Assembly (NCBI GenBank): GCA_963989385.1
Contig: OZ022515.1
Span: 5,488,803 to 5,552,802, forward strand
Reading direction: 5' to 3'
DNA length: 64,000 bases
DNA from: Ctena decussata
Lineage: Eukaryota; Mollusca; Bivalvia; Lucinida; Lucinidae
Positions 13,062 through 58,926 of this stretch are shown piece after piece. Both the position numbers and the translations under genes were made by a program. Numbering within the stretch: the stretch's first letter is position 1; each line of letters opens with the position of its first letter. The notes under the pieces are model-generated. The model was not told where the DNA came from, did not search any database, and saw only the letters and a program-made list of their open reading frames with translations.

Positions 13062-13138
13062 TTAGTATGAGTATTTCTCCATTATGGCTTTGAGCTTTTT
13101 AATGGTATCTTCCACGTTTTCCAGGTTGTTAATGGCCT
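13062..13138 (-). CDS. ROCO-HEPN exon 7: C-terminal helix and stop
   Basis: A T-run ending TTTTTTTGCAG precedes 13138. The first two bases AG complete the Glu codon split at the end of the HEPN exon, followed by 24 residues (AINNLENVEDTIKKLK, AIMEKYSY) and TAA at 13064-13062. The amphipathic pattern and high charge indicate a helix or short coiled coil continuing the helix at the end of exon 6. It is too short for ORF detection; the call rests on the strong acceptor, matching phase, and a composition clearly unlike the surrounding AT-rich DNA. Confidence 0.82.
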
Positions 13139-14631
13139 CTGCAAAAAAATACATTATTTTAAACCAGAAGAATCGTTTGTGCGCAACAACAACTTTTATA
13201 TCGATGTTATGTCAACAGGAATGTGCTCAACTCATTTAATTAAGTATTGGAAGATATTAAAAGAAACATTTTGGCATGTTTTTTTCTCTACACAAATATA
13301 TACAAATTGCAATTGGCAAGCATTTGATTGCGCTAAGTACGTATGTTTAATTGATGTAAAAGTTAGCCATGCTTAATTAGTTACAGTATATTTCTGATCA
13401 AGATCTGAAGTGGGTAACATGATCTAGTTACGGCAAGTTACTGGTGTTACTCTGGTAACAAATTCAATGGTACTCAACGATTTGGACCAATTTTGTGCGC
13501 TAGATGCAAGATATCGAAACCATCTTCAACAACACGTCGTATACATTTAAAATATTTAGGTATTAAGGACACAGGCAAACGGTGCAAGGTCAAATCAGAC
13601 ATCGCAGTTTACACTTTTGCATTAAATTCAGAGCAATTTCAATTGATGAAAAATAAATAAACCTGATATCCCTTAGGAATGAAATTATTTCATTTATACG
13701 AATATAATACTGGTTAGATCCATCGATTGTGCTCTGAAATCCGAATTATTAACTACTGAACAGTTCCTACCCTTCCCAGATGAAGTGGAGCTAGACTTAG
13801 TTCATAAATGCTTACGAATTGCATTCAGACACACCTTGGCCTCATAAAAAACACTGTCTGACAAACGGAATTTTCAGTTTTCATAATGACTACCGTATAT
13901 TTTATGTATAACTAGCGCATGAGACTATGCGCGTGTAAAGTTTCGACAAAATTTCCTGACAGTATCGGATGGGATGCAAGAACGAGTATAATCAAATATA
14001 GCCGCTGGCGGCCATATCGGTCGACGAATCGAAATTATTTCCAATATACAGAATTAAGACTCAATTTGAAAAGAAAGGCAAAAGTCATGAATTGATACAA
14101 TTAGGTCCCATATCCCGCCTTCAAAACAAAAAAGAAAAGAAGTTTATACACAAACTGCCACAAACTCCCGGCAATACTAATTAGTGAAAAATATTTATAT
14201 GTCTGAAACTTCATGTATTTTACAAATGCATAAAACGAATTCTCTGTAATAATACGAGCAGTAACGTCGCTTGAAGAACAAATATCCGCCACTGAGCTAA
14301 ACATATAAGCACTTTTTAGATGTTCTTCATTGATAAAGACGATGATGACACCGTCCTTTGATTAACTATACATACCCCTGTCTCATTTAAGAATTACAAG
14401 ACTAGGGTTTGCAATTTAACAAATATATACTCTCTGTACAACGTTTTGTTTGCCGATTATTTTGGTTAAGACCCAGTTGTAAAATTATTTCAGTCAGTTT
14501 TAAAAGTATGTAATCAAGTCAGAAGTATGCAATTGTTATTATGTGTTGCTCGATAGGAAAAAAAACTATATAATCAATCCGCGCTCCTAAAGCACCCGTC
14601 AGTCTATAAACGGATTTTATTCGGAAGCAAA
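13139..14631. other. ROCO-HEPN intron 6, unique-looking part
   Basis: Intron DNA between the last two exons. No repeat or RNA was recognised in this part and no additional exon with both splice sites was seen. Confidence 0.5.
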
Positions 14632-14812
14632 TACAGTTGAACTTCAATGGCTCGAACCCTAATGGCTCATTTACTCTGCCTGGCTAAAACTCTTTCCCTG
14701 GTCCCTAGAGGTCACAGTATATAGAAACTAACCTTGGATGACTAGAACTACCTTTGGTTGGAACTAATTTTCTTAGTACCAAACCTTTTCGAGCCAATGA
14801 AGTTCAACTCTA
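14632..14812. mobile_element. Small inverted-repeat element (MITE), ~177 bp
   Basis: Ends are AGTTGAACTTCAATGGCTCG on the left and the complement AGTTGAACTTCATTGGCTCG on the right, one mismatch over 22 bp. TA flanks each end (14632-14633, 14811-14812), suggesting a Tc1/mariner-mobilised element. Confidence 0.82.
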
Positions 14813-15369
14813 TAATGTTTTGCAGTATCTGATCTGGGTCGTCCTTGTTCGCTAGGTTGCTAGGCTATTAACAGCCATGTACAATAATTATAGTACATGC
14901 ACGCTGTGCGAAATCCTTTGCTAACCAAACTCGTTGCTTTCAAATTTCTGTTTATTAAAAAAAGAGAAGAAATACAATTAGCCATCAACGCTAATAGCCA
15001 TCATATATTTCAAGGTTAAATAAGTTAAATGACCACAATCAAGGCATATTAAAGTCCTTTCCTTATGTTAATATTTTTGTTGTTATCGTTGTTGTTTTTT
15101 AATATAACCCACAAAGATGGGATAAAATCCTTCTAAAACGAACATTAATAAAACATGCATCTGAAAAGTAAAAAAAGGACCTGTTTGGTCAGCTTATTGC
15201 TTTTGACTTAATAATCACTGGTTGACATTTGCAACGCCGGATAAACGCAAACTGAAAAACAAGAATCGTCAGAAGAAGAACGAAAATAAAGTGCGATTTT
15301 GCGGGAGCTTGACTTTAACAAGCGCAGGTTTAATATGGACAATACTAGCCAAGTAAAGTGAGAGCAGCT

Positions 15370-15730
15370 GCAGTGTCAGGACCCTATGCAATTATGTTCA
15401 TACATCAATGGTCTTCAACATATAAGGCGTAATCACTGGACCATGAAATAAAGGTCAATTTCTACTACTGCTAGTTTTGGGTCCATTTTCTTAGTCATAC
15501 TAATTCATTATCCCAAGCTATCATGTACATACATCAAACAGTCATCAAGATATAAGGTAAAATCACTGGTCTCTGTGACCTCCTGTTAGTTTGATATCAA
15601 ATATCTGGACATACTGAGGCATTATCAGAAGAATCATGTTCGTGTTTCAAAAAGTCTTCCAGTTATAAGAATAAATCACTAGACCATGAAATAAACGTCA
15701 CTGTAACCTACATTCAGTAGATGATCGTAG
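15370..15730. repeat. Fragment of the 'aatcactggaccatgaaata' repeat family
   Basis: Contains the family phrase at about 15430 and variants near 15565 and 15665, matching 11690-11990 in order and orientation. Confidence 0.65.
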
Positions 15731-16440
15731 ACTTATCCATCGAGCAAGTGCGAAGCCTCTAGACCTTGTGGTCACTTAGAAACTGAGCGAAACGCTAGAG
15801 ACGAATGTTTTTCTATGTTCAATTAACCGTGAAGTACAGAACATGGTCCAATTGAAATCATTGCTTTCCGTAGACTTTTTGCAGACGTATTTGTGGAGCG
15901 AATTTGAAGACTCTAGCCCCTGTGGTTACTTAGAAACTGAGCTAAACGCAACAGGTGCATATTTTGTCTATGTTAAATCACCCGTGAAATATAGCTATTA
16001 ACCCGATAGCATCGCTTGTTTTAGTAGATCGTCCCCAAATGTGTCTATGTTGCAAGTTTGAAGATTCTGGCCCTTGAGGTTAATACGAAACTGAGCTAAA
16101 CGCATAAAATGAATATCTTTTTTCTATATTCATTTAACCGTATAATAAAGATGAGGGCGCAATGTTTATCGCAGTTTTCAGGAGATCTTCCGCAGACCTA
16201 TCTCTAGAGAAAACTTGCAGAATCTGGCCCTTGCAGTTACTGAGACATTGAACTAAACGCAACAGGAGAATACTTTATTATATGTTCAATCAACCAGAAA
16301 TATAATATATGTCATTGCCCAATATACTCGCTGCTTTCAGTAGCTCTTCCTCAGACGCATCAATGGAGCACGTTTGAAGACTCTAGCCCTTGCGGTTACT
16401 AAGAAACCGAGCTAAACGCAAAAGGTGAATATTCTTACAA
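15725..16440. repeat. Tandem repeat, ~150-bp units
   Basis: About five units carry 'cgtagacttatccatcgagc' or variants followed by 'gaagactctagcccttg..gttacttagaaactgagctaaacgca'. They start near 15728, 15880, 16030, 16185 and 16330. The block lies in intron 6 of the ROCO-HEPN gene, next to the preceding repeat. Confidence 0.78.
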
Positions 16441-16740
16441 AGGGGCATGCGCACTCGCAGCAGCACGAGAACGCGCACGCGCACTCGGATGTATACGAAG
16501 GGTAATGCGAAAGCACATGTGTATTGAGCTAAAATGTGTATTGTTCTAAATTCTTTCATAAAAGTCACATTTTGGAATTTCTTGTGCAAAAACACTCTTA
16601 TAGAGGGTGTAAAAGACATCTGCATGAATGCATGATAGTTCTCATTGTATTTCATATGACGGAATAGATCAACAGCAAATGTTATTTCATAGTGAAAAGC
16701 AAAAACTATTGTTGAATGGTGAATGAAATTTTAAAATTAC

Positions 16741-17419
16741 CCTCAAATTCCTTTAGTTTCAACTGAAGTTTCTGTGTGTCTTTTGGTGTGAAGACCTGAT
16801 TTTTTCTTTTCGCTAACGCTATGCGGTAGCCTTTTGGACCGATTGAGCTTTCAATGTCATCCACTATTGCACTTATTTCATCCCAGAAGTCTTCAAATAC
16901 ACGATCCTCAAGTCGCCCGTCCGCGGAATAGGCGTTGACACGGTTTCGGCAGTTTCGTATACGCTCCACATTGGCACCGAGAGATGTGTCCCTCGGCTGA
17001 TCTTCCGGTCGTCTACCCCATCCAGTCACAGGTGCTGGAACAGAGCTTATGTTTCTAATTAAAGCATATAACAAAGTAATATCAAACTGATCAAGTGTGC
17101 CTGTGAATTGCCCATTTGGGTCAGGAAATAGAAGGTCTAATTGTTCTTGTCTAATATGTCTCATTGCTCTAAATGTAGGTTCGTATGTTAACAGCGCTGC
17201 GTAGAAGTCGGCGAACCCAATTGGAACATGGCTCAGAAGGATATCTCTAAGTCCATCAGCACACACTGTAACCAATACGTTACAAAGACGTGCATGGTTT
17301 ATGTGTTGCTGTGTCATTGGTACTTCCGCATCCATTTCTTCTATATCAGAGACTGGCATTTTCTCCTGGCCGGCACATCCACCGACAGCTATTCCCGTTG
17401 TCTCTATCTCATCCTCCTT
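16741..17419 (-). CDS. ROCO-HEPN exon 6: DZIP3-like HEPN domain
   Basis: Acceptor CATTTATTTCAG precedes 17419; donor GAGG/GTAATT follows 16741; 679 bp, 226 residues (451-676). The first ~40 residues are an acidic linker. From about residue 490 to 645 the sequence matches the DZIP3-like HEPN family: NHARLCNVLVTVCADGLRDI, then FDITLLYALIRNI, W-G-R-R-P, D-x-S-L-G-A-N-V-E-R-I-R-N and a C-terminal helix FEDFWDEISAIVDDI. The motif that is usually R-N-x4-H reads RNRVNAYS (residues 608-615), with Tyr where His is expected (codon at 16928-16930). The exon ends in a lysine-rich helix with the last codon split. The ATG at 17359 is internal, not a gene start, because the frame runs back to a good acceptor in phase with exon 5. 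Confidence 0.9.
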
Positions 17420-18355
17420 CTGAAATAAATGACAGGGGATTTAAACAATAAATATTTGATCTCTTCAAAAGAAAACCAGTAACAGGGATGAAATATTCTA
17501 ACCCACAAGGCCCAGGGACTTCAAACAAGTCAGAAAGAATCGAATTTATATCTGCTACGAAAGGACACAGAGCTCTTTTTCATAATTTGTGATTTGATAT
17601 CTAAATTTATCAGTATGCTTCCTTTTGTCTTCTGTAGATATGCGACCGCCTCATGAGGGGAAAATGGAGTCGATGGTTTTGCTGACTGTTCAACATTTTA
17701 TGGCTGAACGTAGAACCACTCCTTTACTTGGTGGCAGCAGAGGGCTGAAATTTTGACAGTGGCACTCTCTAGTGATCGTTTCCCTGACTTGATTTATTTA
17801 CATCCCTACAGTAATGTATTAATAATATCCGACATTTATGCTCACACTCACTCTTATTATTTCATATTGTACGTTCGTGATGATTTGTCACCCACGCACG
17901 GCCTATTTAGAAGAGGCAAAAAAAAACAGATGTTTTATAGCTTAACATACCTAGCTGCTTCATTAATAAGTTAACCTTCGTATTTAATCGTCTTCCTACA
18001 CGAATGATTAAATAAAAGTGTTTATAGATAATTGGTGGACCCATCTAAACATAAAAAATATTTTGCGTTAAAACAGGTGTAAAAAGCCATGTAAATGTCC
18101 TTGCACTCATTTTGCATAAACTAACGTCTTATATGTTAATGCAGAACTAATGTATGTGTACTTACAGTCTTTATGCGCAGACATTTTTACTATTTATTTC
18201 AGTGCAACAAGTCTGTAGCTGACATTGCTAATGAAATTTTACTCTGAAATGTCGGAAATCTATATTTTTAAAGGTCCGAAGTGTTTTCTAGTATAACAAC
18301 ATTACTTTGCGTACCATTTGGGTTCTGCGGCACACTAAAATATTCTTTAATTTAC

Positions 18356-18919
18356 CATGTCTATCCAGCCTCCAAGAAGTTCTTGTACATTCAATAAATG
18401 TGACATTTGGCACTTGTCGCATGTTACAGCTGCTTGGTTGATTATATTACTAATGTGCAGATATCCACCACTGTCTGTAGGAGAGTATTGTGGGCACTGA
18501 ATACATTGACAAAATTTGGCTGACAATTCCATGGCTTGAAAAATACTTCTTAAGCTATGAACAAGGAATTCCTGAACAGGTTGGCAAACAGCTTGGTGTG
18601 GTTGTTCTTTATCCACAAAACTCTCTATTCTAGCATGAACAGCATAATTTACCAGAAACAATGTCAGCTTGTAATGGTTTGCCTCGTCAAGATTGAACTT
18701 ACAAACCCCACAGAAGATCAGCTTTCTCCCATTCTGTTCAACTATAGGCCACTTTGTGATACACATAGCTAACAACTTCTGAAATATTGCTGGTGGTAGA
18801 AAGTGGTTCTCTGCAACCATGCAAAATATAGTAGTGCGAGACGATCCTTCCAAATTTGTTAGTAGATTTTTGTCAGCTTCTTTACGTACCATACAAGGTA
18901 TGATATAATGAACGTCTTT
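18356..18919 (-). CDS. ROCO-HEPN exon 5: second half of COR domain
   Basis: Acceptor TTTCTTCCATTTCAG precedes 18919; donor ATG/GTAAATT follows 18356; 564 bp, 188 residues (263-450), phase 0 at both ends. It starts KDVHYIIPCMVRKE, the COR-B 'y-i-I-P-c' strand, then LPPAIFQKLLAMCITKWP, the typical LP-x-x-x-F-x-x-L segment followed by K-W-P. Near the end is a cysteine arrangement CQCIQC and, some 25 residues later, CDKC, which could bind a metal; similar Cys pairs occur in other animal ROCO proteins. The 15 codons upstream of 18919, including an ATG at 18964, are intron read-through, so the apparent start there is not real. Confidence 0.9.
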
Positions 18920-18999
18920 CTGAAATGGAAGAAACCGGGTCTTTAAACTCACAAAAGTGCTCATTTTAACTAGTTATTGTCAATTGTCTCCGCATACTT

Positions 19000-21010
19000 C
19001 ACTGTAATGGGTGAAATGTAGTTATTTGACCCTACCTTACGTTCAACCATGGTGCAGTGTACACCTTTATATTTTGTCCCCACGTGACTTCCTGTTTGCA
19101 TACCTACACGACAAAACCATTTTAGTTCTTCTCGCAGTTTCTTGGTTAATTGTGCATTTTGGTCGTGGTCTTTACTGTGTATTAAACAATTGCATTTTCT
19201 TTTTTTATGTTTCTTTTTTCTTCTTATTGTCTTATTGTCTGCTCAGTGTTGCAGATTTGTATTTTGTCCATATATATCAAAAGTACATGCTAACAGTTTC
19301 CCAAAACCGATCAAAACATTGTAAGGTTATTGCAAATTGGAGAATTTTGTATATCAAGATAGAGACTCTAACTGACTCTAAATGACTGTGACGCCATTGA
19401 TGGGTATTAAACACCAAATGCTTGATAAAAGGACGGGTTACACTTTGGTCGATTTTGTGCCCACGACCGATTTTGATAAAATTTGTGTATTTAAAAGCTT
19501 GGCATTTGGTAATTTATATAAGCACATATTTAAGTTTGCGGTTTTATAAACAATCACGTGACTTCCGGTTTATTACAAATGGGGTGCTGAATGGGGAACA
19601 CTAACTCGCGGTTTTTCAATATAATCATCAATTTTGATGACATATCAGCCGTCCAAACTGACAGATATAATACTGTTGGTTCTTATCCACATTCTAAAAC
19701 AGATATTTTCGCCCAAACCATCTAGTAAGGAGAAATTTTATTTGAATTTTTACGAAACTTCAGAACAGTAGATTTTACAAGTGTTTATTAACACAATAAT
19801 ATGCATGTAAAGCGTTTGCTTTTGTGAAAATAATGAAACAAATGAACAGGAAGTCGATTATAACCAACCGATATTGTTAAGCAAATGGATTCTTGGCGAA
19901 ACGCTTTTGCACGCTTGTGTTCTGACAAGTGCGTGAAAAGGTCATCAGCCTTCTTTTATTAAGCATTATTAACTTTTTATACATATAATGAAAGCTTCAT
20001 CATATCAAATATTAAACACGTATGACAATGGTACGTATTTATGGATGCTACACAGGTACAGGTAATTAAAAGGTTAGACAAAATCAGTGAACCAAGAAAT
20101 GTAGGTCACAGGGACCTACATGTAGTACCAAATGAGGCGCAGCCCTGAAGTGACTTACTATTCCAAGTCCCATGAAGTTTCATGTTAGTTCGAAATAAGA
20201 CATTAATTCAATGGATCATGAAATACAAGTAAAACAAAAAAGTATGACATCATTATATCTGACTGAACCATTTTCTTTAGTATGTTGAATATATAATGTT
20301 GAATATATAAGGAAAAGAACAGTGAACTTTTAAATATATGTCACCGTAACCTACAGACAGTATGAGGATTTTTGCATCGTTTGACTGACCAACTATTTGT
20401 AATTATGTTGCGAATCAAAAAAACGTGTTGAGATATAAGTGAAAATCCTGGTCCATGCATAAAGTTCTAGGACTCAGTGTGCATGGATGCTTTGCAGTTC
20501 CTACATTTATACAGGATATGATCTGATCAAATATCAGCACTCCAACCCCAAAGATATCTAAAGTGGTATGGAAAAAAAGCTGATCCAAGTAACTTTTCAT
20601 ACAAAGTTAGTGGACCAGAGTTCAAGGTCACAGAATTTTATAATGCATCAGCTTCAGGCAGAGGGATACATCATTTGACCACGTCGCAACATTATAAAAT
20701 CAGAGATTATATCACAGCATGGTGATGGAGGACATTCAGTCTAACACCTTACAAACGCACATAACGCCATACCTATATGCATGCCCAGCGCTGCGCCCCC
20801 TCCCCGACCCAACCCCTATCCCACACACACGGAATCCTTGGTGGGGGCATTAGAAACACATACTACTCAGATGAACACTTTGAAAAAGATGTGTTCTGTC
20901 GAATAATGCCTCTATTTTCTATCAGTTACAAAATATAATGATGCGATTTTGGTATAAATCCTTTATTCCTAGTGTTAGATACATGGAAATTTACCCAAAA
21001 AGTTTATTTT
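19000..21010. other. ROCO-HEPN intron 4, mostly unassigned
   Basis: No exon was recognised. 20060-20350 holds diverged copies of the 'aatcactggaccatgaaata' repeat family. 20790-20830 is C-rich. Plus-strand frames at 19011-19604 are low-complexity Leu/Phe/Tyr-rich and look non-coding. Confidence 0.45.
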
Positions 21011-21013
21011 TCG

Positions 21014-21125
21014 TTTACTCCTACCCTCGTAACCATTGTAATGTAACCCGTTTATGAAGAATGTGTATATGAGGAATAATTATGTATAAAAATTGTAGTG
21101 GTTACGAGGGTAGGATGAAGTGAAA
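21014..21125. mobile_element. Short inverted-repeat element
   Basis: CTACCCTCGTAACCA at 21021-21035 pairs perfectly with TGGTTACGAGGGTAG at 21099-21113, with partial pairing for about 8 bp more outside. A 63-bp AT-rich spacer separates them. Consistent with a tiny MITE or a hairpin. Confidence 0.6.
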
Positions 21126-21569
21126 TTCGGATGCCTAGTGGACTACGGTAGTTCAAATTTACATAGACTCAATGTTAAATGTTGCAGAGAGTACATGTAT
21201 TCAACCGCATAATTAAAATAAAAGGCATTAAAATACGGGAAAATTAAAACGTACAGAATAAACTAGAAACATATAGCTATCATTTCTGCATGTTTTTGTG
21301 GTCATCTGTCAACCTTCGAAAATCGGCTTTTTTAGTGGGCACATTGTAATAGTAAATTGTAACTCGTCCTTTCATGTACACCAGAATCATACTAACTGTT
21401 TATCCACGTATAATGGCGTTTCATGGCGATACGATATGAAATTCATCAAAGTATATTTTTAAGCTGTAGTATAGAGGTTCTATAGCCTTGAAGTTAAAAA
21501 TTGTGTGTGATGTTTAAATATATATAGTACATGCGACATGCCTATACTCTGAACAATCTGAATGTGTAC

Positions 21570-21712
21570 CTCTGCTTCCTCGCCATTACCGTCTAAGTCG
21601 CCATGTACATCGACTGGAGCAGCAATAAATAGAAACTTCTCCATCAGACGAATCACGTGCTCATGGTTCTTAAACAGGCTTGGGTCTTCTTTGTTCTTCT
21701 CAAAGATCCTAA
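21570..21712 (-). CDS. ROCO-HEPN exon 4: COR domain, middle
   Basis: Acceptor TATATTTTTAG precedes 21712. The first two bases TT complete a Val codon begun in the previous exon. The exon reads RIFEKNKEDPSLFKN and then HVIRLMEKFLFI, matching the COR segment where the helix 'LMExFxLI' follows the LDPxWL segment. It ends with an acidic, poorly conserved stretch (DLDGNGEEAE) before donor GAG/GTACACA at 21569. Residues are 215-262. The donor was chosen because it is the only GT nearby that leaves phase 0 for the next exon. Confidence 0.86.
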
Positions 21713-22008
21713 CTAAAAATATATATTGGTATCCTTACTAAAAATATATATTGGGAAATACAACTCAGGCAATGCATACACAAACAATGTCCGTCAATAG
21801 TCGACAAATGAACGATTAAACAATACACCTGTAAACAGCTTCATGCATAAACGTTTACACAACCAAAAACCGAAAACAGAAAATAGCAAGTTTATGTTCT
21901 ATATGTTCTCGTGTTTGAAATGGAGAAAAAATACGGGAGAAAAAAAACATATTGAAAAAATAATACGAGAGAATAAAAAACACATATTGAAAAAAAATAC
22001 GTGGTATG

Positions 22009-23032: not shown

Positions 23033-23099
23033 TATACGAGTATGTTATGTAAAAAAAACTTTAGAAAATGTTTTAGCCTGTGTACATTTTATGAGAAAT

Positions 23100-24318: not shown

Positions 24319-25078
24319 AAGAGACTTTATGATGTCTCTTTCTGATGATACTTAAGCTCATGTCATTGAAGCATTCAACTCAACGTCTAGGTACTTGGAC
24401 GGACTTTTAAATATTGACAATCCGTATTTTGAAGAAATGGTTAGTCAAATTTATCCGGCCGAATTGCAGTTTAATAAAGCAAATACATCTGATACCGAAG
24501 TACCCTTTTTTGGATTTACATTTATCAATTTTAGACGGATTTGTATGACAAACGCGATGATTTTGATTTCGACATTGTTAATTTTCCGGTTTTGGATGGT
24601 GATGTTCCTCGCACCACTTCTTATGGTGTTTACATTTTTCAGCTTATTCGCCTCGCTAGGGTGTCTAGTCATTTGGCTGATTTCAATGCTCCTTAGAGAA
24701 GTTTGACTGCCAAGCTTTTACAGCAGGAGTATCGGTATCATAAAGTTCGGAAAGCTTTATTCTAAATTTTATCGTAGTCTCTTTGAATTGGCTTCTAAAT
24801 ATAACACAGGGTTAAGGTCACATTTGCAACTAGGCCTATCGGAACCTAAATTTTATGGTGACTTAGTATATAAATTACGTAAAATTGTAGGAAAAACAGA
24901 ATTTCCTGATCAATTTGAGAAATTATCATGCGATTTAAATGCATTGGCTATAACATAGATGTAATGCGACAGTCTGCATGCTTAGTGATTAACCCAATCA
25001 CGGTTAACAACTTTGCTTTCCTCTTTAATTGCATGCCGGTGGGTCGGGGTTCAGACTCTATGACAGCCCCGGCATAAA
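24319..25078 (+). pseudogene. Penelope-like reverse transcriptase, decayed and 5'-truncated
   Basis: Homologous to the better copy at 59260-60426 (about 90% by eye), starting abruptly at the codons for ERDFMMSLSD. The catalytic motif C reads RYLDGLLNIDN, with the second Asp of YLDD changed to Gly. A deletion near 24540 removes the codons for SSKIY seen in the other copy, and further frameshifts break the frame. The C-terminal part (EPKFYGDLVYKLRKIVG) is in another frame. The element cannot be active. It lies within intron 3, antisense to the host gene. Confidence 0.8.
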
Positions 25079-25640: not shown

Positions 25641-25761
25641 TTGATTCTTATGCCTTTTTCTTTTTTTTTGACATCTGAGTAAAAGACTCTGTTTACGAAA
25701 ACAGTCTAATAGCCCAGATAAAGACATGTAAACCAAATGAGCCAAGACACTAGATAACAAA

Positions 25762-25963: not shown

Positions 25964-25969
25964 AATTAA

Positions 25970-28046: not shown

Positions 28047-28207
28047 CAATGGCTGAGCGACAAATAACCCCCGATTCACAGAATTCTTTCCACTGTGTGG
28101 CAAGTTTTGGGCTGCGGATTGCAAATTTGTCAGCAGTGATGACAGTTTTGAGCCCACCTATCAACCATACTGGGTCCAGTACGATATTGTCACGTAGAAA
28201 TTTATCA
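28047..28207 (-). CDS. ROCO-HEPN exon 3: COR domain, 'LDPxWL' segment
   Basis: Acceptor CTTCTTTTCAG precedes 28207 and donor TTG/GTATGC follows 28047. The first base T completes the AG left by the previous exon (Ser), then comes DKFLRDNIVLDPVWL, the standard COR sequence around the L-D-P-x-W-L motif, continuing with GGLKTVITADKF and WKEFCESGVICRS. It ends one base into a codon. The residues are 161-214 of the joined protein. The frame upstream of 28207 stays open by chance as intron read-through and should not be annotated as coding. Confidence 0.9.
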
Positions 28208-30402: not shown

Positions 30403-30524
30403 CTGTAGTAGATGGCTTTCCCTGACTGGTGTAGGAACGAAAGAAAGGAACCCATTTCAGCATCGTTAGAAATATTAATGTCTAAGCCTCTGTTTATTGT
30501 CTTCAGTTCTTCTAGAGTCAGCAC
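30403..30524 (-). CDS. ROCO-HEPN exon 2: start of COR domain
   Basis: Acceptor TTTTATCCACAG ends at 30525 and donor CAG/GTTAATA follows 30403. The 122-bp exon encodes 40 residues (121-160 of the joined protein) starting VLTLEELKTIN and including FLSFLHQSGKAIYY. The last part is the characteristic COR pattern F-L-x-F-L-H-x-x-G-x-x-x-Y. It begins in phase 0, matching the end of the 58.6-kb exon, and ends two bases into a codon (AG). The sequence follows on naturally from the previous exon with no gap in the domain, although the intron between them is 28 kb. It is too short to be found by ORF length and was located by similarity and splice sites. Confidence 0.88.
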
Positions 30525-42009: not shown

Positions 42010-43195
42010 GCTATTCTAACCCGTACGAGGTCATTGGGACACCACATATGACTTCGAAACAGTCCCTTCCCACCTTGTCCTGTTTTCAGCTGACAAAATC
42101 CAACTTTGTCTACTCTTTAATATTGTCTTCCAACCTCTTCTTCTGTCTACCTCTTATTCCTTTTCCTTTCATGGTGCCCTGTCTTTGCTAATTCAGAAGA
42201 CCTTTAGACGTGGCCAAACCAAATAAGTTTGCGTTTCTTGACCAGCGTCAGGAGTTCATCATATACTACAATGGTTGCTTGGATCTTTCTGTGAACCTCC
42301 TCGTCGGGTATATGGTCCTCATACGTAATGTTCAGTAACCCTCGGTAGCAGCTCATCTCAAAGGTCTGCGTTCTTTTCTTTAACTCTGCCGTCAAGGTCC
42401 ACGATTCACAGGCATACAAGAATATGGAAATGACAAGAGGGCGCATAAGTTTCACCTTTGTTCCAAGAGATATGTTGCTATCTCTCCAAATTTGTTTTAG
42501 CTTGGCAAGAGCTGAAGTGGCTTTTGCAATCCTGTAGAGAACCTACTCTTTTGAGCCATCACCTGAGACAACTGCTCCAAGGTATTTGAAGCTTGTAACA
42601 GTACCCAGCTTCTGCCCTTTTACCTTGATCTCCCTCTTGATGCTATAGGCGCTGATTGTCATCAGATTGGTACTTTCAGCACTGATCTCCATCATATACC
42701 GAGTGCAGGTTTTGTCGAGACTTTCAACTGGGGCCTCTAGTTTCTGATAATCTTCAGCTAGAGCGTCTATGTCATCGGCAAACCTCAGATTGGTAATGTT
42801 TCTGAAGTCTATGCTAACCTTCCATCATGTTCTTACAAAGCATCAGACATGATCCGTTCGAGAAAAATGTTGAAGAGGGTGGGTGGCTGAAGACAGCCTT
42901 CTCTTTCTCCAATTGCTGTTCTGAACCATTCTCATGTGCTGCCATTCATCAGGACTGCTATTGTAGCCTTGTCGTACAGCTGCGGAATGATGCGAACTAG
43001 ATTTTCATTGATATTGAACTTCCACAATGTTCAATGAAGACATGGTATAGATTTTGCTGATGTTGGAGATACTTTTCACACAGGATTCTAAGGTCTAAGG
43101 TGCTCCTTCCGGCTCGGAACCCAGCCCGTTCTTCAGCGATTATCTCTTCGGCTTGTGGTTTAAACCTGTTCAAGATGACTTTCAACATGACTTTG
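42010..43195 (-). pseudogene. Non-LTR retrotransposon reverse transcriptase, decayed
   Basis: Read from 43195 downward, fragments in several frames follow the usual order: KPQAEEIIAEERAGFRAGRS (finger region), PPTLFNIFLERIMSDA, NLRFADDIDALAED with the catalytic F-A-D-D at about 42790, KYLGAVVSGDGSK, then a continuous stretch PLVISIFLYACESWTLTAEL and a C-terminal segment with KRKLIWFGHV. Stops and frameshifts separate these pieces and the N-terminal endonuclease is missing. It matches the endonuclease/RT class common in invertebrate genomes. Inactive. Confidence 0.85.
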
Positions 43196-45543: not shown

Positions 45544-46817
45544 TTCAAAATTATTGAGAATCAAATAATCAAATAATCGAAATTATTGAGAATCAAATAA
45601 TCATATCTGCATATAAAACAGTGTGACAAAACAAGGTATATTTATTGCAAGTACCAACCTTCTATTCGCATCTGCACAAAGAATTTATATTTTATCAAGT
45701 CTCCATTATCTTCCAGGCATAGGTTTATGCAGGTGGGCATGCTATCTATCAAAGAGGTTATGGTTTCGTGGGTGAAGGTGTCCCTATATCGCTCTACGTC
45801 TCTCTTCATATCTTCAATTTTTGCGAGTGCCTGTTTTACTGACTCCTTCATTGTTCCTCAAATATTTTCAATAGGATTCAGATCTGGGCTGTAGCTTGGC
45901 CAACCCAATACTCTTATCCCTTTATCATGAAACCATAGTTTTGTATACTTAGCAGTATGCTTCGGATCTTTGTCTTGTTGTAATATCCAGTCATCTCCAT
46001 AAAACACATGGACATTTGGAAGAAAATATGTTTCTAAAATATCAGTATACCGATTACTGGTCAAATTGCCTTCAAACACACACAAAGGAGTGGTCCCAAG
46101 TGATGCCACTCCACCCCACATATGAAACTTGGGACTGCATTTAGGTCTCTGGTACAAACTCGCAGAATCAGCCTTTGTCCATAACTTCACATTTTTAGTA
46201 TACACCCAAACAGAGCTCTCATCTGTAAATATAACATTACCCCAACCAAAGTTTCCCGTGCTAAACACCACTCAACTCGCCTATCCTTGTGTTCTTGTTT
46301 CAGCAAAGGGGAGGGAATTCCTTTCTTTTTCTCGAAGCCAAAATCAATCAAGTTTCTTCTTACTGTAGATTTTGATATATTACTAGACCCTCTATTGACC
46401 ATTTCATATGTTATATTTGAAATGTTACCCAACCTCACTCGGTCACCAAACTCCAATTTTCTAGGCCTCCCTGCTCGTTTCTGGTGCTCAATACCTCTGC
46501 CTTTCTCAAAATTACTCTTTACCTTGTAAACTGTAGAACCAAGAGTGTCAGTTCTTTCTGACAAATATATTAACATCAGTGATTCCTTCATTATATAGCC
46601 TAAACATCAACCTTCTCTCCTCAGCAGCCAGTATTTACCACTGTCAGAAAAAATGTCGTCTGCTAAAGAATCAAGGGTTGTTACTCTAACTGCTGCAAGT
46701 GATTTTAGTAAAGGGGAGTTGCCTGCCTTAGACCATAATAACTTTTTGAGTATTGAGTCAAAAATGACTAAACTACAGCTGCTGAAACTAATCTTTAAAA
46801 TTCTCAATAATTTTGAA
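45544..46817 (-). mobile_element. Tc1/mariner-like DNA transposon with terminal repeats
   Basis: Perfect 18-bp inverted ends TTCAAAATTATTGAGAAT lie at 45544-45561 and, complemented, at 46800-46817, enclosing 1.27 kb with a transposase on the minus strand. The left end contains an additional direct copy of the end motif at about 45581. The exact target duplication is not obvious. It lies in the 28-kb intron in the same orientation as the host gene. Confidence 0.88.
45642..46807 (-). pseudogene. Tc1/mariner-family transposase, one frameshift and one stop
   Basis: The order from 46807 down is: an N-terminal segment of ~65 residues (unrecognised), a helix-turn-helix region with RAGRPRKLEFGDRV, a second DNA-binding part STVRRNLIDFGF, then the catalytic core: VIFTDESSVWVY (first Asp), LQQDKDPKHTAKY (second Asp) and YSPDLNPIENI (Glu or Asp position), the usual DD-about-34 arrangement. 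The second and third parts are in different frames, joined by a frameshift near 46258. A further shift or stop separates the N-terminal piece near 46605. After NPIENI the expected Trp codon is TGA at about 45855; the frame then continues for 70 residues. Only a few changes from intact, so a fairly young copy. Confidence 0.88.
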
Positions 46818-46829
46818 CCAAACTATATT

Positions 46830-48590: not shown

Positions 48591-48597
48591 AAAACAT

Positions 48598-50215: not shown

Positions 50216-51049
50216 TTTCTTCTTTTTGCATGTGAAATTTCAAGCAGTATCGTTTTGCAACAGATTTAAATTGCAAAATTAAAGGTAGCATCTGTGATTT
50301 TAACGCTCAAAAACCGTCTTGCCCGTGATATTATCACCAGCAATACTTGCCGGACAGCCACGCGTTAGACAGAAAATTTAGGTCGACAGCTTGTCAAATA
50401 TTAGCTCGGATTGCTAAATCCTGAAGAAGAGAAAAAGAACGGAGTTTAGTGAGCTAAAATAGACTATAAACTGATGGAACGCACCTCACCTCTTTGCTGG
50501 CCTGATTGGCATTGTACAAAGTTGACTGCCACTCAAATTTACGACACTAATATCATTTTCAAACTTTTTTTATCTTTAAAACAGTCCTCTGTTATTTGTC
50601 AAATAATTTATTCGGTCACTTTATTCTGACGTGATCGATGAAAAATGACCTATTCATTTTATCTAGAGCTATAGGCAGCCGGATTATACGTCGAACATGA
50701 ATTTAACCAGATAATTTAGGGCCGGTACGAAATGAAGTTTTTTTTTGTTTTTTTTCCCTGTCGTTTTGTTTGTATATTTAGTTAAGTGAGAAAGAAACAA
50801 GCCGGTTGGCGATGAAAGGAGGTTGGGCGGGGGAAGTTGGGGGGGGGGGGGGGGGGGGAGGGGGTAGAGGTTTGTGCGAACAGCATTTCTTACATCATGT
50901 TTGGACTAAGGAATTCCTATTTCATCACAAATATCTACAAATGAGGCGAGAATGCGTTGTTATACATTTATATAATAATAAAAGTTTCGTCTGGAATGAT
51001 GCCTGCCTGATACCAAACATGACTTGAACAGTCGTTGCTTTCACATCAT

Positions 51050-51093
<44 letters not shown>

Positions 51094-52020
51094 ATTTAAT
51101 GGATAAATTTGGGCAATATTGTTGTTACACACAAAGATAACATTTGAATTTTACCAGCAGCTGAGCCGCGGCATGGAAAGAGGAAGCTTGTCGCATGTGA
51201 TAACAGCAAAAAAAAACTGCTTTGCTTAGTCTATCAATACTGTGTCAAGATTCAAAGCTGTATACCTATAAGCGAACAACAAAACCATGATTGGCTAGCA
51301 AGAATTTCTTTCCACTCTGAAATAAGCCGACGACTACGAAGAGTATTTCGATGATGAGACTGAAAAGTGTAACGGGGTGGGTGGGTGGGTGGGTATGGTA
51401 GGGGGCGGGGGTGTAGGTGTGGAGATGGAGGCATACTATATGTATGTGCAATCCGACATTTGGCACATGGCACAAAAAGCAGCCATTATATGGTAAATAT
51501 ACTTAAACTGTATACGAATCTCTCAAATACGGCGAATTCCATATCCTTCTTAAGACCATTGACAGTGTACCTAAACAATCTCTTTGAAAGTTGAAAACAG
51601 CAAATATATATGAGGAACTGTTAAACTGCATTGACTTTGTATACCTTTTCAACCAACTTCTCATTGCTTTCATTAGTAAAAAAGTGCATAAACATAAAAG
51701 CTACAAGCAAATGTCCATACTAGAATGCACACATGCAAGCTGTTCATCTTAACATTTATAACATTTGTAGTATGGGCTATCTAATTCTTTGCTGGTTGCA
51801 GGTCACCCGTATATAGTGTTCAAATGCGACCCAGGTCGCTGGCTCGATTCCTATCATTCCTAATGAATGTGTTTGAAATATTTTTCTAGTCGATTCGGAA
51901 ATCAACTGTCCAACAGTTTACTTTTAGGTCACAGAAAATGAAGAATAAACCCAGAGTTGAGTATACAGTACACTGGATTTCTCAGGAAGATGAGAAATGG
52001 AAAAATATCAAATCTTCCGG
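50216..52020. other. Intron 1 DNA with simple repeats
   Basis: A G run of about 19 lies at 50830-50850, (CT)n of about 40 bp at 51050-51090, and a (GGGT)n / G-rich tract at 51375-51420 that could form a quadruplex. No exon was recognised; frames across these are compositional. Confidence 0.6.
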
Positions 52021-52024
52021 TGAC

Positions 52025-52266
52025 CTTCAACCCCGGAGATAATACCACTTTAGCCACCTGTGCTTTCGACCGAGTCAATCAATTACCATACGTGCAAAAG
52101 TGGCTGTCGACCTAGACAATCGACAGCAGTAACAGCTAGGTCGACAGCCATTAAAAATATTACCATTTACCGTTATTGGTAGTGCTGACAATCGTATTCT
52201 TGGTCGAAAGCCACATTGTATAATACAGACTCGGTAGCCAAATTGGTATTACCCCCGTGTTCAAGA
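52025..52266. mobile_element. MITE with internal perfect hairpin
   Basis: The ends 'accccggagataataccact' and, complemented, 'acacgggggtaataccaatt' are inverted repeats of about 30 bp with mismatches. In the middle TGGCTGTCGACCTAG at 52101-52115 pairs perfectly with CTAGGTCGACAGCCA at 52136-52150. Confidence 0.7.
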
Positions 52267-53164
52267 GATCTGGGACTACTAGTCAAACAAAGATAAAACA
52301 GTTACAATTCCTATCGGCACACAAATGAAGAATGACATGTTCAGCCTTTTAAGGATCTGAAAAGAAATTAAATGTATACATGTAAATGTGCGGGCCTACG
52401 AAGATTGGGTACACTTCCAGCAGAATCATCTCGGCAATTTAATTTATGCCTACATTTCTAATGGCGGTCAACTCTTTAAGCTCTTTTGGAAGCAAATGAT
52501 TTTTTTAAAGAATTTTTCTGTTTAGGAAGTCAACAAATGTGACCCCCTTTGTCGAAAAGGCAGCCGGAAATACATGTGGGCATACCCACCGTGACACCAT
52601 AAGGTTTTAAATTCTAGCAAACCTGCAGGTCCAAAATATGGCAAACATTTCCATTTCTGTGGTATGTTTTCCGCGTGTTTCCGTCCCACGAAGTATTAAA
52701 GTATAAGTAAGATCGTCCTGATGGAATGGGAAATCGCACAGCAGGGCTCAATACAAGAATATTGATTGAGGATAATTGTACGACAGTATGTGACTGTATG
52801 AAGAATCGTCTTCCCAAGACTACTCTAATGTGCAGCAACCACAGTCATTTTGTTGGAGAAATAAGAAAACATATATCTGATTTATTAGTGAGTTCCCTAT
52901 TTAGATCTACCAGTGTACCTGCAGATTTGTAAATCCAACACACAGATGCCTGACGAGCTTCTCCGTTTGATACAGGCTACGTAAAAACTCACATGCATGT
53001 AGTGCACTGCTAACCCTTCTAACCACCTCACCCACTCAACACCAATCCCAGTTAACTCACATGCAACCGTTAACTTTTAAACAGATGCGCGCAATCTGTT
53101 TATTGAAGAAAATTAACAGTCAAACTATAGACCTGAATTTTAATTGCTGATTAAGTCCATCTTC

Positions 53165-53520
53165 TAATTTAAAGAGTAACTACACTTCAGGAACTGACTG
53201 AATCAGATCCCAAACCCTATCCCCAACATCAAAGGGAATGATTGACAAAGACATCCCAACAAACAATAAATTACAAGTGATAAGACGAGTCAGCAGCTCT
53301 TTCCCAAATAGATGGCAACTCAGCTATCTTTATTGAACTAAATAATTTAGACCAACAGACGGGTTACAACGGACTAAGCAAATTATATGAAAAACATTTA
53401 ACAATTATTTTTACCTATTTTCTATTTTTATGATAGAAGGGTTAAACTGAGAAGACAATAAATTAAACAGCACCGAACATAAAACAAATGCAACCAGGAT
53501 TAAACAAACAATTTTAGGAT
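53165..53520 (-). mobile_element. Tail of a Penelope-like copy, inverted
   Basis: This is the reverse complement of about 60790-61110: for example 'ataagacgagtcagcagctc', 'acgggttacaacggactaag' and 'tttctatttttatgatagaa'. No reverse transcriptase remains next to it. Confidence 0.8.
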
Positions 53521-54499
53521 ATCTTCAAATCCACGTCCGCGTATCCTCAAATGCGTTTTAGGATATCCGTAAATTATGGAATAACGAATACGTAGCAAAA
53601 CGGCACCCATACAAAATTACGCCAAAGGTTTGTCAATATATTGCTGCAGTTTAGAGATGAGACTTGACAATATTCTATTTCACAATAAATTATGTTTAAA
53701 ATGTATTTGCTGGACTGTTTCATTCTATCTCGGTCGACAATTAATCAGTGTTAGATGGTAATGTTTCTAGGAACAGGCAGATTTGCGAGTTTGTTATTCT
53801 AGCAATGAACATTTCGCGCGATGTGAAGTGGACAGAAGGCTGGCATCATTTCGCCGCCATTTATATGTTAGTTTGCAATTTCTGAAATTTCACGTAATGG
53901 TAGAGTATATTTCAGTGTTATTCATGGCATAGGTCTTGGAATTGGAGAAAGTCAAATAAGCTGTAAATCGTAATTTTTATTCACATGTCTGACGTTGAAG
54001 TAAAGGGCTTTGTTTCGTTCATAATAACACAGCCGACAAAGATTGTCTTGGAATTAGTTCAACAGTAATATTCAGTAATGGAAGTCAGAGAGGTTCTCTT
54101 AAAATTTCAACTGGTGAGGCAATATGATGAATGTGTATGGTGGCGTGAAAATACAGAGGGGATCATCGATATCTATTTTAATGGCGACGATTTCGAGCAA
54201 AAATCGTTGCTATGGGCTTAATTATATCCCTACTCCTTGGAGCTGCGTTCCAACTGTATGGACAATCTTCTTAAAAGCACATCAAAGAAACGAACAAAGC
54301 AGACTTGAATTCACTCAGTCTGTTTGTATGCAGTAATGTACTGCTGCAACACTGCTCGCACTTTCTAGCCACGGCTTCAACCGTACACTTTTTCAGTCTG
54401 ACTCATGGTGAGTTCAATAATGATTTAAAAACTTTGTTTCCACGGGCAGTTATCAAATTTATCATGACCTATGCAAACTATGTATCTTACTTTTTTGGC

Positions 54500-55800
54500 A
54501 GAAGATGCAGTGTTGCTTGGAGAAATTAAAAGTGAATTACAACGGTTACTGCACAAACTAAAACTGTATTGCACCACATGGGATCTACAGGTGAATTTAA
54601 ACAAAACTAATGTAGCTGTATTTTCGAAATGGCGGTAATCTTCGAGGATATGAGAAATACTTTTTATGGAGATACACAGTTAAAATTTTTGACTCATTAC
54701 AGATATTTAGGTTTAGTAATATATTCTCGATTATTTTTGGTATGTGTGCGTGAAAGCATTAGCGGAACAGGCCTCAAAAGCAGTTTTTAGTTTAAAACCA
54801 ATTCTGAGTTCGTTTGGGCCTCTTTCGGCAATTTTGTCACTGAACATATTTGACACAAACATTTTGCAAAATATGACATATGCTGCGGTGATTTGGTTTT
54901 CCCATGGAAATTTAGTCTCGTAAACATACTTCATGTTTTCTGTAAATAAATTTTGCGAACGACAAACCGTTCTGCAAACATATAGGAGCGGCTGTAGGGT
55001 AAAGGATAGCACTCCGGACTACTATTTCAGTGGTCGTCAGATCAATCTCCCGCTTCTCCCGTCTTTCGGATGAGACTTGAAACCGAGGTCCAGTCTGTTT
55101 TTTTACCTATTTGTTGGTGGGAGCTAAACCCGAGTTGACTCACTCACTCACTCACACACCAAATATATTTGCTAAGGATGAATTAGGTAGAAATATTATT
55201 TATATGACTAGATGTTCAAAAATTATTAATTATTGTCAAGAATTTTACGTATGGAATACAACAGGTACCCTGTAATATGTTATGAACTTGTGTATAAATT
55301 GCTTAATAATAATTCTAGAACAGATTGTTGGGAGACAAAGGTTAGAAAGGAACTTGAAAATTATGTATGGTACAAGCAAGGTGTAGAGCCGGTGAACGTA
55401 TTTTCATTTCTATTCTTAAACAAAGACTATTTGACAGATGTTCTAGAGACTTATAAACTTAGAACTTATGAAATATTAAAAGAAAAATTATAGCTCCGTA
55501 TGGACCGTAATGTCGATACTTAGAGGGGGTTCCTTAGATTTAATAGTGCACATTGGGAGATATGAAAATATACGGTATGAAGACAGAATGTGTCCAGTTT
55601 GCAATATGGCTATAAAAATTAATTTCATGTTTAATTTGGATGGTCTCATTATATTTCGATGGGACAGAACTATATTCGTAAGTATCACTCTACCTGTCCG
55701 TCATATGATAAAGGCGGAGTTTCAGCCTATGTTAATTTTACATAGGAATCTGCCCACGCTTAGATTTTTTTTTATTTCAATGTGTATTTGTGTTGCCTAA
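54500..55800 (+). pseudogene. Second non-LTR reverse transcriptase remnant, interrupted by a SINE-like insert
   Basis: From 54500 the plus strand reads FLAEDAVLLGEIKSELQRLL (motif C region, A-E-D for A-D-D), LQVNLNKTNVAVFSKW, then after stops ALAEQASKAVFSLKP and NMTYAAVIWF. After an insert, 55230-55490 gives RILRMEYNRYPVICYELVYK and VRKELENYVW. Further on, 55525-55620 reads IVHIGRYENIRYEDRMCPVC, a C-terminal Cys-containing segment usual in these elements. Stops and frame changes throughout; not active. Confidence 0.75.
54965..55162 (+). mobile_element. SINE-like insert inside the retrotransposon remnant
   Basis: The segment begins 'gagcggctgtagggtaaagg', has 'cgtctttcggatgagacttg' followed by 'aaaccgaggtcc' (a conserved phrase I recall from invertebrate SINEs) and ends in (ACTC)n at about 55138-55155. 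The retrotransposon frame resumes after it. Confidence 0.55.
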
Positions 55801-56229
55801 GGACTAAAAGTGTTGCTTATGGATTATTTGCCTCAGTTTGCACACTCAGCATAACACAAGATTAACTTAAGTATCTTATAACCTGAAAATGAGGGTTCCC
55901 GTAAAATACCGTTCCTAGTACTATCAAATTTTTAGATTTTGCAATTTCAATTATAAACTTAAATTAATGTGAAACAGTTTACAAATGCGTATATTTACGC
56001 TACACTAAAGGGCTTATCTACAAAATACTTTTTGTTTGGTATAACCCCTCCAAATCAGCTAAAAACCACACATATATCAAAAATTAATTCTCAGTTAAAG
56101 TGTGATCCAATTGTTGTCAAGATTTTATACTAACCATAAATCATGCTGTATACCTCTTATATATGTACGAGCAAACTGAAGACAGTCTGAGTCCGGTAAA
56201 CTACACTTCAGGGCTGCAGAATATAGGCT

Positions 56230-56515
56230 ATCAAAGTCACCTGTATATACCAATTTTTAAGCCAAAATCTTAAAAACCAAAACTTCCCATGAAATCTTAT
56301 GTTCTAGCGTTTTCCAATATTTGACCTTGCCGTAAAAAATGGTCAAGGTCAATCCAAGGTCATCATTTGGACAATCTTGGAAGAACTAGAGTAGCTGATG
56401 CTACTCACCAAGTCTCAAGGCCATTGGTCAACTGGTTTTTAAGAAGATTTTTAAAGATTTTTTGACCATATATGGGCATTGTGGCCATGTCGATCATGTG
56501 ACTTGGAGCCAGTAT
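56230..56515. repeat. Fragment of the 440-bp tandem-core unit
   Basis: 'tataccaatttttaagccaa' through 'accatatatgggcattgtgg' matches 1060-1310 in order and orientation, without microsatellite or hairpin end. Confidence 0.75.
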
Positions 56516-57081
56516 GTATTCTCTCACCTTTAGTGGCGGGGCTGTGGGGCATAATATAGCAGTTAAGATATTAATCTGACCAAAGTTTCGTAATTCTAGG
56601 TCATAAAATTGAATTTAACCATCTTCTAAGCAAGTTTATGTTATCAGTCAACCATGAAAACCAGGTCATTGTGAAATTCTCGTCACATCATCCAATGGTA
56701 CTGGTCAAGGTGCTTCCTAGACATGAGTTTGATGATTACTGGTCAGTTTATTTAGCAATGATGCCAAGAAATATTGAAAATAGAAGACAAAAATATAAAA
56801 AAAAAATGCTGAACGCCAAAGGAAGTCTCTTTTGACCACATATATTCAAATTAAACCAAATAATATGATATGGAAATACATTTTAGATGTTTTGTTAATC
56901 ATTTTATTAAACACTGTCTGTCTGCTATACCCTTCTACCAAATGAGAACATTTTTGCAAGACCAGCTAAAACCATGTTGAATTACCCCACCTACTTCTGT
57001 GGACCCATAGTTCAGTAACTAGGGCTTTCCGACCAAAGTCACATATGGTTCAATAAACTAGACTCACTGGAGTATACCATC

Positions 57082-57405
57082 AGTCAGAAAAATAAAACTT
57101 TGGTAGGATGCAGAAAACCCACCCAATTGATACCCCCCCCCCCCCTTTGTAAATCTACGAAGTTTAGTGAAACGGTACCCTGGGTCATAGGCGTAAAAGT
57201 AAAAAGTATGCAAAGACCAGGAACTGAAACAATCCAAATCCAAATCCAGCCCTCAAACCATAGTTGGAAACAACTAAGATTACAAATAATCAAGATACAG
57301 AGAACATATGGCCAACCGAGTGAGCAGCTTGTTCCCAAAAGGTGGCCACTCAGCAACCCAAACCGAACCAAAAATAATAAGAACATACATAAGGTAAAAC
57401 ATCAC
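57082..57405 (-). mobile_element. Inverted tail fragment shared with 62.7-63.3 kb
   Basis: The reverse complement is nearly identical to 62747-62971: 'gagcagcttgttcccaaaag', 'gtggccactcagcaacccaa'. It begins next to a C run of 13 (57128-57141). The frames read on both strands are mirror copies of the same repeat, not genes. Confidence 0.85.
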
Positions 57406-57649
57406 AGAAAGCCGAGCTCTTATAGAATAAACCGTATACTGCATCATATTTTACCGTGCCAAATATAAAACACACCCAACGAAGGGGTTTAGAAGATATG
57501 AGAACTTAAACAACATACATGCAAACCTTTAACAGAAATGTTAACTAGAGAAAGGATGGGCAGTTGAATAGACGACCAAACGAACAAATGGATAGAGGAA
57601 CGTATGAAACGCATTTGATAAAATTTACATATATCTTGGCACACTTTCA

Positions 57650-57782
57650 ACAAAATGTTAGCCGGCAAAATAAACGGAGGATAGTATTTGATTCAACTCC
57701 AGCATTAGAGTATCCACAAAATGTTAGCCGGCCAAATAAACGGAGAATAGTATTCGATTCAACTCAAGCATTCGACATAGTG
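57650..57782. repeat. 66-bp tandem duplication
   Basis: 'acaaaatgttagccggcaaa' and the following ~46 bases are repeated at 57716 with few changes. Confidence 0.85.
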
Positions 57783-57984
57783 ATTCACCAAACTGTCCCA
57801 ATAATATTGTAGATGAACGAGAACAACACGCAACGTTAAAGCAAGTGCAAATTTTAAATTCTGTAATCTTGTTTGCCAGCCAGAAGCAGCATTCTGCTGA
57901 ACCTAGAAGTAAGCCTATGAAAAGGCTACATTGACGTTTTTTGGAAAAAATAATCAAATACTGCGATCCGAACTGATCATAAAC

Positions 57985-58445
57985 TTCAAGACACTTTTAG
58001 TATCTGTCCTTGACCTAAGGTCAGCAGCAGAATGTTGTATGAAAAGGTATAAGACTGTTACTTAGACCTTCGGTCGGCAGCACCATCCAGCTGCATGTCA
58101 AGTAATTCGCTGCAGCTAAGTAGTAAGAACAAGACCTAGTAACTTACCTTAAGTTTGAGTTGAAGAAGATTTGATATATAAACATGAAACTTAAACTTAG
58201 TGCCAATTTTCTACAAAGTTTGCAAGTCCTTGACTGCGGGCATGGGTGGGGATTGTCTAGAATAAACATTAATGGCACCATCTTTTGTCATCCGTAACAT
58301 AAAACAAACTTGAAAAACTAAGAGATCTTAATAAGCTTTAAGACAAAACTTTAAACTCAATGGTAGGGTGGCAGATGGACAGACAGACGGACGAACTTCA
58401 GACAAAAGCCGTGTGCCCCTCAACATGCTTAGTATGACGGGGATA
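57985..58445. repeat. Remnant of a tandem-core-type element end
   Basis: Ends in 'gacagacagacggacgaac' followed by CCCC..GGGG pairing around 58415-58442 ('gtgcccctcaac', 'gacggggatata'), like the (GGAC)n plus hairpin ends elsewhere. Its left part shows no clear tandem core. Confidence 0.5.
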
Positions 58446-58564
58446 TAAAAAAATAGAGTTTCTACATTCAGCAATATATACAAATCAAAAGTTTATCCTA
58501 ACCAATAGTTCAACCTGCTGCATATAATCAAACTTTAGTCAGTAAATCAATAAATAACTCTTAC

Positions 58565-58926
58565 CTTGAAGCCAGATGCTTTCCGCTGCTGAATTTCTCT
58601 GTCCAGTGGGAGCCACTTTGCTGGAGTTTTCTCTCCCCAACTTGACTGCAGCTTAGCAAGTTCAAATATCTCTGTTTTGAGCCGAGAGTAACTTTTATCA
58701 TTTTTTTTTGAGTTATTAACAATAAATTCTGTCTCTGACAATATGGCATTAAATGGCGTTTCCGCGATTGCACTTCGAAATTCTTTGAAGAAATTTGCAG
58801 CTATGGTTTCTCGAATTTCCTTTGGTATTTTGTCAACATGGGTTCCGACAAGGATAACGTGAGGATGAGTTTCGGATTTTACTACAGCAAACATGTAAAT
58901 GATGTTCAGCCAGAAGATCATGGATT
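58565..58926 (-). CDS. ROCO-HEPN exon 1 in window: end of Roc GTPase domain
   Basis: The acceptor is a pyrimidine stretch ending TTTTTACAG just above 58926; the donor is AAG/GTAAGAG at 58565-58558. The exon starts with two bases of a split codon and then gives 120 residues, ending in phase 0. It opens SMIFWLN, then has VILVGTHVDK at residues 23-32, the Roc G4 motif (T-H-x-D) that reads the guanine base. Residues 104-111 are WLPLDREI, the typical link from Roc into COR. The G1, G2 and G3 motifs are absent and must be in upstream exons outside the window. The open frame continues past both splice sites into intron, so the 149-codon ORF there overstates the exon. The family call is confident; the GTPase cannot be judged intact without G1. 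Confidence 0.9.

Follow-up and report, generated by a model that had tools for sequence, protein, structure and literature searches.

Few direct outputs are clear for Roco proteins, a group that includes MFHAS1, DAPK1 and LRRK2, the Parkinson's kinase. HEPN RNases work as pairs in which the active site is composed of two domains. Here we describe a gene of the bivalve Ctena decussata that is predicted to join both modules. It lies partly inside a 64-kb stretch of contig OZ022515.1 (C18:5488803-5552802), called the window throughout, and is referred to as the window copy or window gene. We propose, with our confidence evenly divided for and against, that one spliced gene codes for a Roc-COR module, a zinc-ribbon-like motif and a C-terminal DZIP3-type HEPN effector, and that its family would carry out GTP-gated RNA cutting while the window copy itself would not cut.

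CtRoco is described as mainly a monomer when GTP is bound, as a dimer in the nucleotide-free form and as lying between the two when GDP is bound (PMC6337361). The Rx4-6H motif of HEPN domains is described as a putative endoRNase site in two studies (PMC3710099, PMC9646362). An excerpt of the 2013 HEPN survey calls this motif "mostly conserved" in the DZIP3-type family and gives TPR, Zn-ribbon, RING, ankyrin, CARD, NACHT, DEATH and LRR as fusion partners, with Roc-COR unnamed there (PMC3710099). In the pearl oyster, the DZIP3-type HEPN occurs with NACHT, and the motif is kept in 194 of 202 such proteins (PMC9646362), indicating that its loss is unusual, although not unheard of. Brown-algal Roco families have been discussed as candidate immune receptors (PMC11378527). 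Among the matches listed from the open-licence PMC literature we recognised no description of Roc-COR joined to HEPN, and we read this combination as a new variant on the Roco-type switch-plus-effector proteins.

Results

The exons, splicing and phases of the window copy were deduced from the genomic sequence alone. Seven minus-strand exons, running from position 58926 down to 13062 of the window, are joined through exclusively GT-AG introns in consistent phase into 701 residues followed by a stop. This reproduces the model of a preliminary description of the locus, which had left the strand unstated. The third known exon of the gene, E1 (58565..58926), codes for the end of Roc with its G4 motif GTHVD and for the start of COR-A, and gave a 54% tblastn match to the homologue P0001 (E 3.6e-41). 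COR-A continues through E2 (30403..30524) and E3 (28047..28207, with NIVLDPVWLI) and ends in E4 (21570..21712), while E5 (18356..18919) carries COR-B and the zinc-ribbon-like motif; these four exons were placed by the exon join and by tblastn with P0001. E6 (16741..17419), which was predicted to be all-helical (mean predicted local distance difference test score, pLDDT, of 80.8), holds a linker and the HEPN_DZIP3 domain recognised by Pfam, and E7 (13062..13138) the C-terminal tail ending in the stop codon TAA.

Pfam analysis of the 701-residue join returned COR-A at residues 101-242 (E 1.7e-13, above the curated cut-off) and HEPN_DZIP3 (PF18738; E 5.4e-21, 75.3 bits compared with a cut-off of 27), and the HEPN frame alone matched the latter family at E 8.7e-22. 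The E1 and E5 frames taken singly gave no Roc or COR family match in Pfam, and COR-B was assigned by colinear homology in the tblastn search of the window with P0001, where all but one of the seven exons gave a match and the matches followed the exon order. The best sequence match among solved structures was the LRR-protein chain 4wnr, which we take to be a Roco protein, over join residues 80-192 (E 1.3e-4).

Inside the window, Roc is represented only by its G4 end, and further exons were sought in the 150 kb of contig lying 5' of the window (to C18:5702802). Two minus-strand exons located 14 to 30 kb past the window end join in phase with the other seven: a P-loop exon with the G1 motif GNGGVGKT (C18:5583100-5582825) and a G3 exon with DFAGQ (C18:5567841-5567296). 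The resulting nine-exon join extends over at least 81 kb and codes for 975 residues without an internal stop, at 48% identity to residues 194-1185 of P0001. It is matched by Pfam Roc at E 1.5e-13, and its GTPase motifs GNGGVGKT, DFAGQ and GTHVD are intact. The earlier assignment of Roc, COR and HEPN to the 701-residue product was thus upheld for COR-A and HEPN_DZIP3, and for Roc only after the two outer exons had been added. The window gene would therefore have at least nine exons, and an apparent splice acceptor immediately 5' of the P-loop exon indicates that at least one further 5' exon is probably missing. Pfam matched no LRR, TPR, WD40 or ankyrin sensor repeats, such as an NLR-like immune receptor would carry, in the 975 known residues, which lack the 5' end.

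A protein search with the 701-residue join, in which 7997 candidates were scored, gave 28 matches, the homologues being gene predictions. According to a precomputed Pfam list, 20 of the 28 are single predicted proteins that combine HEPN_DZIP3 with Roc and COR-A. P0001-P0015 and P0017, which stem from ENA sources, align with 99-100% of the join and are 49-53% identical to it. Those matches that carry a species name come from the freshwater mussels Potamilus and Sinanodonta (Unionida), where they are labelled hypothetical proteins in the database, and all named family members found were bivalve.

Copies of the gene were then counted by searching the genome of the window (1.658 Gb) with P0001; 39 of 221 candidates were scored, and the copy counts are lower bounds. 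The genome contains at least 11 family HEPN exons including that of the window copy. Of the ten others found, nine have an open HEPN exon and one, on C7, is broken by four stops in this exon. A COR-B exon is located on the same strand ~0.9 to 9 kb 5' of each HEPN exon (11 of 11), and in 9 of the 11 the alignment starts at join residue 451, the E6 boundary. At least 13 COR-B exons, the window one included, and at least 10 additional E1-type exons were detected. Four paralogous loci also have the tail exon, at 80-91% DNA identity, on the same strand and 2 to 27 kb 3' of their HEPN exon. Together with the homologues, the COR-B order and the recurring tail exon support the fusion originally put forward as one gene.

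A pattern search of the linker before HEPN detected one to five ~20-residue units in six copies out of 11; the pattern gave none in the other five, of which C2:39134 shows one unit by eye. A coding repeat of ~20 residues, in two to five units between the zinc-ribbon-like motif and HEPN, was noted in L025, L028, L029 and L030 (copies on C8 and C18). The genome as a whole has 38 HEPN_DZIP3 matches, at least 11 of which fall in Roc-COR-HEPN family exons; one of the other 27 is positioned at C18:5696477-5696938, ~190 kb 5' of the HEPN exon of the window.

The putative catalytic site is altered in the window copy, a change absent from the preliminary description. Alignment with the other copies placed the active-site stretch RNRVNAY at 16928..16948 (minus strand), where the active-site His codon has become TAT (Tyr; 16930-16928) and the preceding Gly codon GCC (Ala), requiring at least two point changes in adjacent codons. 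Gly-His is kept in all ten other copies found (GGC or GGT followed by CAT), even in the broken C7 copy. Outside the genome, we examined 32 HEPN-bearing proteins from both protein searches, leaving out P0018 and P0019, which end inside HEPN; 31 of the 32 keep Rx4-6H (28 by pattern, and P0036, P0037 and P0041 by eye). The window copy lacks Rx4-6H, though its domain belongs to PF18738, and the published "mostly conserved" status of the motif implies that it is not a requirement for membership. Tyr in place of a His kept by siblings and relatives suggests that the window copy is probably not an RNase.

Two additional elements, likewise missing from the preliminary description, were recognised around the Roc-COR core. 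A C-x2-C-x24-C-x2-C motif (CIQC...CDKC; 18410..18505, minus strand), found by pattern in E5 between COR-B and HEPN, may form a zinc site; it is shared by the window copy and 21 of the proteins P0001-P0022, and the pattern was unmatched in P0017 and in the Unionida proteins P0023-P0027. In P0001, P0005, P0010, P0018 and others, a Rab-like domain occupies approximately residues 1-165, before Roc, giving two GTPase-like domains per protein. As read by eye, all 13 aligned rows that cover the domain from its start have neither the G3 Asp nor a Ser/Thr following the lysine position of the P-loop, for which we term the domain degenerate Rab-like, and 11 of the 13 keep NKxD. A search with 13 relatives, covering the window beyond 59 kb and the adjoining 150 kb of contig (to C18:5702802), found no Rab-like domain 5' of the window gene, which may or may not share this feature of the ENA relatives. 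The best upstream match (E 0.042) was judged a chance one, and the 26 whole-genome Rab-like matches (26-55% identity, mostly partial) appear to be ordinary Rab-type genes.

A profile search for relatives collected 73 proteins, and the domain order was determined by Pfam scan for P0034, P0038, P0039, P0042, P0043 and P0057. The mussel relatives are Roc-COR-TIR (P0038 and P0042), Roc-COR-CARD (P0039) and Macro-Roc-COR-Death (P0034); Mya P0043 is SH2-Roc-COR-Death, and Ruditapes P0057 is HEPN-nSTAND3-Roc-COR-Death, with nSTAND3 slightly below the cut-off. HEPN, TIR, CARD and Death thus share the C-terminal slot after Roc-COR across the relatives. To see whether the HEPN fusion arose once, COR-region trees were built from the 68 of 78 sequences with at least 180 profile positions, to which ten COR-B exons from the Ctena decussata genome were added. 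A quick tree of 78 rows placed the copies of this genome beside the ENA relatives, with 38 ungrouped rows uncounted. A careful tree of 23 chosen rows required four changes of the HEPN label, of which the starred branches force one, so that effector exchange among Unionida Roc-COR proteins is suggested by this analysis rather than shown.

Several further elements were observed in the window. A broken Tc1-like element in the E1-E2 intron consists of two overlapping frames at 45861-46606 (minus strand) with matches to a Tc3-type helix-turn-helix and to the DDE_3 transposase, and the same intron contains a reverse-transcriptase fragment at 42546-42824 (minus strand; RVT_1, E 3e-05, under the curated cut-off). 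One frame (AHVIEAFNSTSRYLD...) occurs in two plus-strand copies, at 59686-60426 and 24356-24706, which gave no match in a Pfam scan and are probably fragments of a single mobile element. A SECIS_1 match at the end of this frame (60401-60464, plus strand; 36.2 bits compared with a cut-off of 35) is probably due to chance.

Decay of the window copy towards a pseudogene, with the His loss reflecting relaxed constraint, is an unlikely though credible explanation. We calculated pairwise ratios of nonsynonymous to synonymous rates (dN/dS) for the HEPN exon of the window copy against seven alignable copies, two distant copies being saturated and the broken C7 copy omitted. These ratios were 0.33-0.75, compared with 0.22-0.71 for 22 other pairs with dS under 0.6, the pairs not being independent; this difference, and the plainly broken C7 sister with its four stops, would be consistent with decay. 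On the other hand, the window copy is free of stops and frameshifts over nine exons, its dN/dS is below 1 in the HEPN and COR-B exons alike, and its 20 private HEPN-exon residues fall inside the range of 5-21 seen in the seven copies compared. The ratios below 1 and the ordinary number of private residues point to a constrained copy, perhaps one less constrained than its sisters. The nearest copy by COR-B was C18:28404 (dS 0.064), while four copies were nearly equal by HEPN (dS 0.155-0.17), and this discrepancy hints at gene conversion or recombination among copies.

A second explanation, in which Roc-COR-HEPN proteins are scaffolds or RNA-binding adaptors, free of RNase activity in all members and binding RNA or proteins through the zinc-ribbon-like motif and HEPN, appears doubtful to us. 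It would accommodate the window copy, which lacks the active-site His, and non-catalytic RNA binding has been proposed for some HEPN domains in the survey (PMC3710099). However, Rx4-6H is retained in 31 of 32 outside proteins and in all ten other copies found, a pattern implying that the catalytic motif is under selection.

Two adjacent genes, one for Roc-COR with E5 as its last exon and one for HEPN, are very unlikely and a fusion is favoured: read-through of the E5 donor meets a stop two codons on, also in one paralogue, making a COR-only isoform possible, 2 of 13 COR-B exons (C18:5110513-5111085, minus strand, with a linker fragment as the sole match in the 5 kb 3' of it, and C7:92637803-92638378, plus strand) have no same-strand HEPN exon 3' of them, and P0020 and P0021 are truncated before HEPN and P0018 and P0019 inside it, but the three domains form a single predicted protein in 20 of 28 homologues, where a shared gene-prediction error is conceivable, and the COR-B order and the recurrent E6 boundary hold in the genome itself.

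Discussion

Our preferred reading is that of a single Roc-COR-HEPN gene from a family of GTP-gated RNases. In such a family, the nucleotide on Roc would decide whether COR joins two subunits or keeps them separate, and the COR state would pair or separate two HEPN domains, turning RNA cutting on or off. The preliminary description had proposed COR dimer control of HEPN pairing and left its direction open; by analogy with CtRoco, which is described as dimeric without nucleotide and mainly monomeric with GTP (PMC6337361), states other than the GTP-bound one would favour pairing, and loss of GTP would let COR join two HEPN domains and switch cutting on. The switch-plus-effector layout suggested at the outset is retained for the family, in which HEPN, TIR, CARD or Death is C-terminal, while an RNase effector is not retained for the window copy with its Tyr in place of His. 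This copy may still switch and pair, leaving the composite HEPN active site incomplete, and as a non-cutting subunit it could act as an RNA-binding regulator or as a brake on active paralogues. The role of the family is probably in intracellular defence or stress; a possible immune role is suggested by the proteins in which such domains occur together, as described in related work (PMC8195603, PMC9334734, PMC9646362).

Several observations weigh against this reading. The full-length model was poor (mean pLDDT 52), leaving HEPN pairing without structural support. The 5' end of the window gene was not found in the 150 kb 5' of the window. P0057, in which HEPN is N-terminal, is also without the His, whose loss is consequently not unique to the window gene. 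The dN/dS of the window-copy HEPN exon is higher overall than among the other copies, which slow decay would also fit.

A bolder extension, which we consider speculative and rather improbable, is that GTP-gated Roc-COR-HEPN RNases coexist with at least one dead sister that has lost Gly and His; the dead subunit would pair via COR and set the threshold of RNA cutting, amounting to poison-subunit control of an immune RNase, and in the ENA relatives control would have a further GTPase-like surface to act through, the degenerate Rab-like domain that precedes Roc. The His-less copy next to ten His-keeping siblings, nine with open HEPN exons, provides a ready-made control. More generally, a Roc-COR switch whose effector slot can be filled by TIR, CARD, Death or a domain of RNase type would offer a simple read-out of how such a switch drives an effector.

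Among described systems, the window gene can be compared with Roco proteins such as CtRoco and LRRK2, with which it shares a Roc bearing G1, G3 and G4 that is followed directly by COR-A and COR-B. It differs from them in having a C-terminal HEPN instead of a kinase or repeats, a zinc-ribbon-like motif past COR-B and no LRR match in the 975 known residues. A homologous core is found in Roc-COR proteins of the bivalves Potamilus, Sinanodonta, Mya, Mactra and Mercenaria, which bear Death, SH2, Macro, TIR or CARD. In them the C-terminal position of HEPN is taken by another domain, which is TIR, CARD or Death, and Macro and SH2 sit in front. The mollusc NACHT and HEPN_DZIP3 proteins, as described in pearl oyster (PMC9646362) and Aplysia (PMC9334734), likewise combine an NTPase switch with a DZIP3-type HEPN, and the pearl oyster family is also duplicated; in contrast, the window gene uses a Roc GTPase in place of NACHT, and its HEPN is C-terminal rather than N-terminal as in pearl oyster. 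Finally, the bacterial AP-GTPase-COR conflict systems, which consist of LRR, AP-GTPase (Roc), COR and a variable effector (PMC8195603), would by analogy work like the window family, although they are bacterial and homology was compared for Roc-COR only. The family described here would thereby link animal Roco proteins to bacterial conflict systems built from a GTPase plus a variable effector.

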